From an uncultured Erythrobacter sp. (GTDB taxonomy: Bacteria; Pseudomonadota; Alphaproteobacteria; Sphingomonadales; Sphingomonadaceae): a stretch of 64,000 nucleotides of DNA. Every line of letters begins with the position of its first letter. Within the stretch, counting starts at the first letter, position 1. Positions 51,004-52,566 of the stretch are shown piece by piece. Both the position numbers and the translations under genes were made by a program. The notes beneath the pieces are model-generated. The model searched no databases. It was not told the DNA's origin and saw only the letters and a program-made list of their open reading frames with translations. Location of the stretch: the NCBI GenBank assembly GCA_947493165.1, contig CANLPY010000002.1:310001-374000 (forward strand), given 5' to 3'.

Positions 51004-51054
51004 GAGAAGGCCATACACTAGAGAAACGTCATCCTGAACCCCGCGCCCTGCACC

Positions 51055-51136
51055 GTCATCCTGAACTTGTTTCAGGATAACCCCATCAACCACGCGCCAA
51101 GCCTTGAGGGTTATCCCGAAACAAGTTCGGCATGAC
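51055..51136. repeat. REPIN-like inverted repeat, upstream of the GIY-YIG gene
   Basis: GTCATCCTGAACTTGTTTCA followed by GGATAACCC is mirrored after 24 bp by GGGTTATCCCGAAACAAGTT and CGGCATGAC. Each arm has about 29 bp with two or three mismatches. A partial extra arm (CGTCATCCTGAAC) lies at 51027. Sequences of this kind (translated as LKQVQDD) are widespread short palindromes of alphaproteobacterial genomes. Confidence 0.85.
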
Positions 51137-51166
51137 GAGATGGAGACAAACCGCTACCCTTGCACC

Positions 51167-51463
51167 ATGGCCAAACACCCCTGCGTCTACATTCTAGCCA
51201 GCGGCAAACGCGGCTACATCTACATCGGCGTCACCTCAGACATGGCCGCGCGATACCACCAACACCAAGAGGGTTCCTTCGAAGGCTTCGCGCGGCGCCG
51301 CAATTGCAAGCGGTTGGTGCACGTGGAGATGTTCGCGACGATGGACGAGGCCATCACCCGCGAGAAACAGCTCAAAAACTGGCACCGTGATTGGAAGATC
51401 AGTTTGGTGGAGGGGGATAACGCAGACTGGCGCGATTTGGGGATGGAGATGGGGTTGCGGTAG
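51167..51463 (+). CDS. GIY-YIG nuclease-domain protein, 98 aa
   Basis: CVYILASGKRGYIYIGVTSD is the GIY-YIG core (Y-I-L ... Y-I-G); the conserved Arg is in DMAARYHQHQEGS and the catalytic Glu in TMDEAITREKQLKNWHRDWK. This is the YhbQ/single-domain type with no DNA-binding extension. It is bracketed by two REPIN-like palindromes, 30 bp before and 50 bp after, so a role in the spread or upkeep of these palindromes is possible. ATG 51167 was chosen, since frames starting earlier run through the repeat. Confidence 0.88.
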   Translation: MAKHPCVYILASGKRGYIYIGVTSDMAARYHQHQEGSFEGFARRRNCKRLVHVEMFATMDEAITREKQLKNWHRDWKISLVEGDNADWRDLGMEMGLR

Positions 51464-51512
51464 TCCTGACCAACCGACAACCGTGCTCACCTAGAGGCAT
51501 CACCCCTCACCA

Positions 51513-51591
51513 GTCATCCCGGACTTGATCCGGGATAACCCTCGCGGGTTTGCGCTTGGCTCCTGTTATCCTGAAACAAGTTCAGGATGAC
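51513..51591. repeat. REPIN-like inverted repeat, downstream of the GIY-YIG gene
   Basis: GTCATCCCGGACTTGATCCG plus GGATAACCC is mirrored by GTTATCCTGAAACAAGTTCA plus GGATGAC. It is the same family as the element at 51.06 kb, and within each copy one arm differs from the other (Cgg versus Tga variants). Confidence 0.85.
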
Positions 51592-51603
51592 GGGGAAGGA
51601 AGG

Positions 51604-52566
51604 TCACTGGTAATCGAGCGAACGTCGGATCGTAGCTGCAAGCTTCTCCACAAACTCATCAGGTTCGTGTTTCGTCCACATAACAGTCGTGCAGTGGTTT
51701 GTATCGAAGTGAGTTTGGCGATCATCAAACTTGGACTTTTCGCAGATATAAATAACGGGTTTGCCTAGGCCTTCAGCATATCCCGCCTCCCAGTAAGCTC
51801 CTGGGTTATCGTGAGTGAGATCGGCAATGATAAAAGCAGCGTCTTGGATATGGGCGCGCATTATGTTGTCAATGATGCCAGCGCGAGAGACATCCCGCAG
51901 ATCAATCAGAGGATGCCCTATCTCCTGAAGTTTGGGCTTCACGTGTTGATCTAAAAGGCCATCAAGTGTGGCATCACCAAATTTAAGCGCAATAAAACCG
52001 GTTTTAGCCTTTGTAACCCCTCGCTTTTCCGACTCGTAAATTTCCCAGCCTGCTAAGGTCAAATCGAGGTCAATCGATTGGTATTGGTGTTGTAGATCAC
52101 TGGCATCAATACCGATGAGGACCCCTCTTTCGATCAATTCGCTCGAAATTTTCTCGGCTGAGCGCCGATCCACAGCACCGACCAAAGGATGAAATTCTGG
52201 CGGAAACTGACTAAGAGGCTCTGCGGCTTTGATCACATAGTCGCCGACGAAGCGGATAATTCCGCTCGCTTGTTGCGCAGGCGATGGAAGTGAGGGCGCT
52301 TCTTCAATCAAATTTTCGATGTCGTATGTCGTTACAACCAGAACATCATCTTGAGGCCCCAAGCTATCTGTTTGCAGCCTGAGTCGGCGCGAAAGCACCG
52401 CACGAAGTGGCAGGGTAAAATCCGAATACTGAGATGCCGCAGCACTTCTTGAGAAAATGAAACTCCCACAAACGTCGCAATCGTAGCGGTAGCCATCTGC
52501 ACCCATTCCGTCCCGCTGTTTGCAAGGAAAGCCATCACGCGATTGGCAAACTGGACATTGGGTCAT
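51604..52566 (-). CDS. Zinc-ribbon protein with nucleoside 2-deoxyribosyltransferase/TIR-like domain
   Basis: 320 residues. The N-terminus is a likely zinc ribbon (CPVCQSRDGFPCKQR, CDVCGSF). The middle (about 60-190) is of unknown kind. The C-terminus (about 190-315) has FIALKFGDATLDGLLD, FIIADLTHDNPGAYWEAGYAEGLGKPVIYICE, typical of the nucleoside 2-deoxyribosyltransferase-like superfamily. Relatives of that fold serve as NAD+- or nucleotide-degrading effectors in anti-phage systems. It follows thiC after 40 bp, but its origin next to the GIY-YIG/REPIN unit suggests an accessory gene. Confidence 0.7.
   Translation of the reverse strand: MTQCPVCQSRDGFPCKQRDGMGADGYRYDCDVCGSFIFSRSAAASQYSDFTLPLRAVLSRRLRLQTDSLGPQDDVLVVTTYDIENLIEEAPSLPSPAQQASGIIRFVGDYVIKAAEPLSQFPPEFHPLVGAVDRRSAEKISSELIERGVLIGIDASDLQHQYQSIDLDLTLAGWEIYESEKRGVTKAKTGFIALKFGDATLDGLLDQHVKPKLQEIGHPLIDLRDVSRAGIIDNIMRAHIQDAAFIIADLTHDNPGAYWEAGYAEGLGKPVIYICEKSKFDDRQTHFDTNHCTTVMWTKHEPDEFVEKLAATIRRSLDYQ

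Follow-up and report, generated by a model that had tools for sequence, protein, structure and literature searches.

What does a small nuclease gene do between two inverted palindromes, and does its product act on them? This question is raised by a GIY-YIG gene in the window, that is, the whole 64,000-nucleotide stretch of DNA analysed here. The first-pass annotation had likened the arrangement to that of REPIN/RAYT systems and proposed a domesticated mobile unit driven by a GIY-YIG nuclease. Judging from the comparisons below, the locus is likely to be a member of a widespread class, in which a small GIY-YIG gene lies within an inverted pair of CGTC REPs (single REPs or REPIN dimers), the nuclease acts on its cognate palindrome, and copies have been dispersed.

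Table 1. The GIY-YIG locus and its palindromes; positions refer to the window unless contig C1 is named.
Feature	Position	Strand	Remarks
98-aa single-domain GIY-YIG nuclease gene	51167..51463	+	PF01541, E = 5.3e-16, 59.1 bits
Conserved Y, Y, R, E, N positions present in the GIY-YIG protein			Alignment A1
Partial REP arm	51027..51039	+	CGTCATCCTGAAC; inverted match to 51580-51592, 13/13
Upstream palindrome dimer	51054-51137		Ends 29 bp before the ATG of the GIY-YIG gene
Outer upstream palindrome, CGTC-tagged	51054..51078	+	Stem ATCCTGAA, loop CTTGT
Inner upstream palindrome, degenerate	51113..51137	-	ATGCCGAA, CTTGT, TTCGGGAT; closes the dimer 51054-51137
Downstream palindrome dimer	51512-51592		Starts 48 bp past the stop of the GIY-YIG gene
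Inner downstream palindrome, other class	51513..51536	+	ATCCCGGA, CTTGA, TCCGGGAT
Outer downstream palindrome	51568..51592	-	Equals 51054-51078, inverted
Places of the degenerate pattern in the genome	Both window dimers; C1:669561-669642; C1:722120; C1:807484-807555		

The match to PF01541, the only Pfam domain of the window protein, confirms the annotated 98-aa single-domain gene between the palindromes (Table 1); NCBIfam and PADLOC gave no match for this protein. The third, partial arm annotated just upstream was likewise found. Two inverted repeats of about 80 bp do stand around the gene and their outer members are identical (CGTCATCCTGAACTTGTTTCAGGAT, inverted), but each repeat is a REPIN-like dimer of two short palindromes, and the inner members differ. 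The inner palindromes have drifted, with 3 mismatches between the inner and the outer upstream one, or are of another class. All window tags read CGTC or AGTC. Folded as single-stranded DNA, the upstream dimer is predicted to form one long hairpin (z -8.5) and the downstream dimer two separate hairpins and a small one (z -5.5).

When up to 3 mismatches are allowed, the palindrome pattern occurs three times in the 64 kb, always at the GIY-YIG locus, and is absent from 100 shuffles of the sequence; the second type, represented by the inner downstream palindrome, occurs once, at the same locus. A degenerate pattern allowing up to 2 mismatches marks five places in the 2.97-Mb genome, two of which flank the window gene. 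This genome holds two small GIY-YIG genes and a third GIY-YIG match in a 650-aa frame, which from its length is presumably UvrC. The second small gene (L008, G000 C1:964608-964829) has a palindrome of another class (ACCCCGGG, CTTGA) 21 bp upstream. Next to the window unit lies a 320-aa gene (51604-52566, minus strand) with a weak nucleoside 2-deoxyribosyltransferase-like match of 24 bits, under the cut-off of 28.8. The contents of the surrounding ridA-thiC interval differ between members of the genus. As an empty-site comparison this interval was unclean, with ridA and thiC close together in four of eight relatives and other material between them in two.

The palindromes can be compared with a known family. 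Di Nocera et al (2013; PMC3733652), in the passages available, describe a CGTC-REP super-family with the tag CGTC or TGTC, an 8-bp stem starting with A, a loop of 4 or 5, and inverted dimers, known from Alphaproteobacteria, Neisseria (dRS3), and other groups. According to these passages, CGTC REPs “apparently lack a dedicated transposase”, and none of the tyrosine transposase genes of the named CGTC-positive species is flanked by CGTC sequences. The palindromes studied here, tagged CGTC or TGTC, with 8-bp stems that start with AT or AC, loops of 4 or 5, and inverted dimers, fit this super-family as described in those passages. Our scan, which required GTCA followed by T or C, recovered CGTC-type tags, stems of 8-9 bp, loops of 4-5 bases, and inverted dimers, and the base preceding GTC is mostly C or T (56 units and 81 dimers). 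In some relatives, the palindromes deviate from the CGTC-AT pattern, as does GTCGTCCCTGC in Bradyrhizobium. The palindrome features are the same, but the passages of PMC3733652 report no dedicated enzyme, whereas here a GIY-YIG clade is tied to them.

Among 180 loci, we counted 81 REP dimers in “+-” orientation, 73 of which span 65-104 bp, and 56 REP(+)...REP(-) pairs of 330-520 bp that resemble the terminal inverted repeats of a classical insertion sequence. No target-site duplication was detected: the 56 units and 81 dimers lack direct repeats of at least 5 bases at offsets 0-3, and shorter direct repeats at their ends stay within the shuffle range.

Bracketing by palindromes is confined to one group of GIY-YIG proteins. 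From 149 genomes of the family, 100 GIY-YIG places were chosen among the best-scoring matches listed, with up to 20 kb around each; together with 29 of the 30 loci in that list, L008, and the window, they give 131 rows, 130 of which are in the protein tree (L060, with an interrupted frame of 14 aa, was omitted; L023 was dropped from the flank scan). Two scans were applied, a strict REP pattern and a tolerant hairpin scan, the latter for all flank counts. The strict pattern undercounts, with 31 of the 100 loci positive within 300 bp; its density is 27 and 28 per 100 loci in the two gene-adjacent 100-bp bins versus 0.3 per bin past 1 kb. By the tolerant scan, palindromes flank 55 of 57 rows in one clade, 45 of them on both sides, versus 1 of 73 outside it. 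The clade was delimited provisionally, once tree and flanks were known (node SH-aLRT 82); a wider starred set of 65 rows contains the same 55 flanked ones. The palindrome of the sole flanked row outside (L039) differs in stem and loop from all others and is probably there by chance, and the two clade members unflanked by the scan (L110 and L125) show imperfect palindromes by eye. A chance origin of the bracketing is rejected by the shuffles of the 64 kb, the bin densities, and the control windows described below. Since outside-clade rows of the same genomes are unflanked, bracketing is not a general GIY-YIG property either. The expectation of the first-pass annotation that genes of this subgroup are flanked above the rate found elsewhere is thereby borne out, the sampled sister groups being unflanked.

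Within the clade, the commonest layout is REP(+)-gene-REP(-), with one outward-pointing palindrome per side (19 of 57 rows), in units mostly 350-410 bp from end to end. In 43 of 51 cases, a gap of 5-32 bp separates the end of the upstream palindrome from the start codon. The downstream palindrome has its start anywhere from 22 bp ahead of the stop to 33 bp past it in 42 of 49. In several units (L072, L096, L127, L129, L135, L138, and others), it overlaps the gene end, at a distance of -6 or of -21/-22 from the stop, so that the last codons come from the REP. All 60 “+...-” REP pairs that enclose 250-700 bp in the 180 loci hold a GIY-YIG gene; as these loci were picked for that gene, the count means that nothing else nearby is so enclosed and is not a genome-wide rate. 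Flank homology collapses the 57 clade loci to 29 places, a place being defined by no shared flank DNA at E ≤ 1e-8 over at least 120 bases within 3 kb, a definition that older shared descent may escape. Part of the association is therefore shared descent, which counts against our preferred explanation. The enzyme itself is under purifying selection, with dN/dS of 0.08-0.29 in 10 of 12 pairs and saturation in the other two. Residues Y8, Y19, R29, E66, and N85, which we take to be the catalytic positions of GIY-YIG nucleases, are invariant in the 11 rows of alignment A1.

If enzyme and palindrome belong together, their types should agree, and palindrome class indeed follows enzyme clade, also across places without shared flanks. 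Each locus was assigned the class of its nearest palindrome. The nearest protein relative shares the stem class in 41 of 55 flanked genes (shuffle mean 14). When only relatives at other places are admitted, 38 of 55 agree in stem class, against a shuffle mean of 14 and a maximum of 26; for loop class, 50 of 55 agree, the shuffles averaging 27 and reaching 41 at most. With one row per place, the stem class is shared in 14 of 28 versus 4.9 (p = 0.001) and the loop class in 23 of 28 versus 14.2 (p = 0.002). The agreement extends, more weakly, to the genome-wide level. Away from the sampled genes, TGAA-class REPs have a median of 12 in genomes with a TGAA enzyme (n = 20) versus 5 in those with a CCGC enzyme (n = 12; one-sided p = 0.02), and CCGC-class REPs a median of 0.5 versus 9, respectively (p = 0.008). 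The excess of own-class REPs away from the gene gave p = 0.009 in a difference test; this genome-wide comparison omitted two genomes having both classes, and further enzymes in the genomes compared are not all classed.

The association reaches well beyond the family. A contig scan with one genome per species yielded at least 580 confirmed candidates, from which we used the best 80, ranked by similarity to one palindrome-flanked member. Their titles name Alpha-, Beta-, Gamma-, and Deltaproteobacteria, Bacteroidota, Nitrospira, Ignavibacteriales, Chloroflexi, Omnitrophota, Scalindua, Myxococcota, and several Patescibacteria. The tolerant scan places a palindrome within 300 bp in 60 of these 80 relatives and on both sides in 45. 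Counting loci with two-sided REPs or with an exact inverted repeat of 13 nt or longer around the gene gives 66 of 80 versus 3 of 480 control windows from the same loci; when REPs on either side suffice, the figures are 74 of 80 versus 54 of 480. Among the remaining six are two Bradyrhizobium loci with palindromes recognized by eye, in direct orientation. The exact bracketing repeat alone was seen in 0 of 480 control windows. In this broad sample, REP-like hairpins occur by chance within 300 bp often enough (53 of 480) to count against the preferred explanation. As L166 shares flanking letters with L110, the family sample and the 80 loci overlap.

Mobile replicons carry the gene as well. A plasmid collection contained 37 records with a match, and 8 were selected for different organisms. 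By eye, 7 of the 8 loci have palindromic repeats within 200 bp on both sides, including those of Neisseria gonorrhoeae (dRS3-like), Azospirillum lipoferum, Novosphingobium aromaticivorans pNL2, and the cyanobacterium Planktothrix; the Rhizobium tumorigenes plasmid locus shows no palindrome close by, a point against the preferred explanation. On plasmid p1 of Planktothrix agardhii (L263), the palindrome-associated gene has a type IIL restriction gene on one side and DISARM drmA on the other. Further, 11 IMG/VR viral contigs (L225-L235) carry relatives of the clade, and 9 of these are palindrome-flanked. The REPIN/RAYT-like arrangement and the GIY-YIG-linked short-palindrome system proposed by the first-pass annotation for a local case survived the flanking tests as a general association that crosses phyla.

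Orthologous places with and without the unit demonstrate that the gene and its palindromes are present or absent jointly. A unit lies within about 2 kb of ruvA in at least 11 genomes of 10 genera. Among 20 stretches compared at this place, palindromes are found in all 8 with the gene and in none of the 12 without. Seven of the 8 have palindromes on both sides by the scan, and the eighth has a second one, with a changed tag, by eye. In three of the 8, the unit lies beyond dsrE, and five further gene-free stretches beyond dsrE (L295-L299) contain no palindrome. The clean pair G002 and G089, from the same genus, differs by about 436 extra bp in G002, comprising the gene and both palindromes between dsrE and ruvB (names assigned by Pfam); in G089, the two flanking matches overlap by 3 bases, TGA, the dsrE stop. 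The pairs G006/G092, G015/G097, and G096/G012 were unclean, since different sequence stands in place of the unit or next to it. Azospirillum lipoferum 4B has a REPIN-gene-REPIN unit between sufB and sufC, and the same interval in three relatives measures 87-129 bp and contains neither unit nor, by eye, a palindrome. On Sphingobium plasmids, four aligned filled alleles contain the unit. Among the four empty ones, a lone palindrome is present in two: in the first it is identical to the outer arms, and in the second it departs from them at two bases. The remaining two have other sequence at this site, in one case with a different palindrome recognized by eye. The lone palindrome (L267 and L269), two-tagged and situated where the complete unit sits in sister plasmids, could either have been left by a deletion or have served as a target for insertion; its occurrence in two of four empty alleles is not predicted by whole-unit insertion alone.

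Palindrome number was expected by the first-pass annotation to depend on the gene, and here the outcome is mixed. A clade-like copy, defined by E ≤ 1e-22, a threshold that also admits unflanked sister groups, is present in 95 of the 149 family genomes. The 54 genomes without a copy have a median REP count of 3.5; the median is 16 in the 44 with a single copy, 16.5 in the 24 with two, 60.5 in the 14 with three, and 48 in the 13 with four or more. The relation to the clade, strong in the raw counts, is weaker after subtracting four REPs per copy (p = 6e-4). This dependence is real but imperfect: at least 20 REPs occur in 9 of the 54 clade-free genomes and at most 5 in 14 of the 95 clade-bearing ones, both counting against the preferred explanation. 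Contrasting presence and absence of the clade within genera gives 11 up, 3 down, and 2 ties (p = 0.057, not significant), or 10 up, 5 down, and 1 tie after subtracting four REPs per copy (p = 0.30). By number of PF01541 matches, the extreme same-genus contrast yields 24 up, 15 down, and 5 ties (p = 0.20), and genera with both one-match and richer genomes 14 up, 1 down, and 4 ties. In the 54 clade-free genomes, REP number correlates with non-clade GIY-YIG matches as well (rho 0.50), so part of the copy-number trend is unspecific. One clade-free genome (G044) has 239 REP-pattern matches although neither a clade copy (E ≤ 1e-22) nor a Y1 gene is matched in it; its enzyme may have been lost, the gene may be missing from the 90-contig draft, or another mobiliser may be present.

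Y1 transposases of the RAYT superfamily (PF01797) are present in 24 of the 149 genomes and gave no match in the other 125, the window genome included. Of the 38 genomes with at least 40 REPs, 9 have Y1 and 29 none, 34 have the GIY-YIG clade, and 3 have neither. Genomes free of Y1 have a median of 19 REPs if they carry the clade (n = 77) and of 3 if they do not (n = 48). A RAYT as the mobiliser is thus poorly supported, as most REP-rich genomes lack Y1.

The closest analogy is to REPIN/RAYT systems. Both combine short dispersed palindromes, often in inverted pairs, with a dedicated enzyme whose small gene stands between copies of these palindromes: two inverted REPs joined as a dimer are seen in the two window repeats and in the 81 dimers of the 180 loci, and an enzyme gene bracketed by REPs in 55 of 57 clade rows. 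They differ in enzyme, a GIY-YIG nuclease here (PF01541 only in the window protein, no PF01797 in its genome) versus an HUH/Y1 tyrosine transposase, and in tag, CGTC versus GTAG; the window unit is therefore not a member of the REPIN/RAYT family. The GIY-YIG and HUH/Y1 folds are unrelated, so the two kinds of system probably originated independently. For RAYTs, the passages available from PMC8049555 describe palindromes that are commoner where the enzyme is present, and enzymes that are single-copy and not seen on plasmids. By contrast, up to 8 clade-like copies per genome and plasmid loci are found here. As to other small GIY-YIG proteins, the UPF0213 members 1zg2 and 1ywl are the only solved-structure sequences matched by the clade profile (E ≤ 0.01), and the outside-clade small rows of the same genomes, perhaps UPF0213 in the strict sense, are flanked in 1 of 73. 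Among the matches listed from open-access full text, no title or abstract links bacterial GIY-YIG genes with REPs; most subscription papers and all preprints lie outside this literature, and a prior report is possible. The accessible parts of a 2025 REP survey (PMC12306157) mention neither GIY nor a transposase, and those of a Coxiella MITE paper (PMC5896051) do not mention GIY.

How might such a unit work? Taken together, the data support the reading that the enzyme maintains or mobilises its palindromes. The nuclease would most likely recognize the palindrome cognate to it, probably in hairpin or cruciform form, and would nick or cut it. Host repair or replication would then copy the palindrome, or the whole unit, elsewhere without target duplication, and dispersed REPs and REPINs of the same class would be passive copies, as REPINs are to RAYTs. 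Of the domesticated mobile unit that the first-pass annotation had envisaged, the bracketing proved general and clade-bound; its driving by the enzyme we infer, and the copy-number dependence is imperfect. The enzyme looks partly domesticated, because a position close to ruvA is met repeatedly, in about ten genera.

The GIY-YIG fold also occurs in homing endonucleases, and the enzyme studied here might instead cut pre-existing lone palindromes, upon which its gene would be copied in by gap repair from another unit, so that the gene spreads and the palindromes do not. Free-standing GIY-YIG homing endonucleases share the catalytic domain, and spread of a gene without target duplication is conceivable for them. 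The lack of any detected target duplication here and the lone palindrome in two of four empty Sphingobium alleles, one with two changed bases, speak for such homing. That palindrome is, however, also expected from deletion between the short direct repeats of both REPs, and when the palindrome is taken as the homing site, no intact site exists in any of the 12 gene-free ruvA stretches, the five beyond dsrE, or the three Azospirillum sites. The window protein also differs from homing endonucleases in consisting, by Pfam, of a GIY-YIG domain only (98 aa) and in its two-sided palindromes. Homing into existing palindromes as a general rule is thus unsupported by the ruvA, dsrE, and Azospirillum empty sites, and we keep it as an unlikely rival.

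A slightly less probable reading is that a structure-specific host nuclease trims or resolves REP hairpins, and that gene and palindromes remain side by side since the latter tune expression or dosage, with no copying involved. Purifying selection, the units near ruvA in 11 genomes of 10 genera, and genomes that have the gene and few REPs would suit such a role. It accords poorly with units at 29 places by flank homology, inside an operon, on plasmids, and in several copies per genome, and with the joint absence of gene and palindromes. Finally, that a RAYT or other transposase mobilises REPs which happen to carry a GIY-YIG gene seems very improbable, although Y1 occurs in 24 of the 149 genomes and REPs persist in some genomes without the clade: Y1, the only transposase family counted, is missing from 29 of the 38 REP-rich genomes, the clade is found in 34 of them, and REP number is higher with the clade among Y1-free genomes. 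Moreover, no gene other than the GIY-YIG gene is enclosed in the sampled loci, the class of a REP follows the clade of the enzyme, and, in the available passages of PMC3733652, no tyrosine transposase gene of the named CGTC-positive species is CGTC-flanked.

Returning to mobilisation by the nuclease, the GIY-YIG clade is a strong candidate for the enzyme behind CGTC REPs, which the available passages of the defining paper (PMC3733652) leave open. On balance, though with some caution, we favour the view that the nucleases of this clade are the long-missing mobilising enzymes of these REPs, and that they define a class of mobile elements, composed of a small nuclease gene, two hairpin ends, and passive palindromes, which arose independently of RAYTs and is present in many phyla. 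Given a specific candidate family with cognate classes of enzyme and palindrome, a single small protein and a hairpin oligonucleotide would suffice to test this view. Should it hold, partnerships between palindromes and enzymes would have evolved at least twice, from unrelated nucleases.
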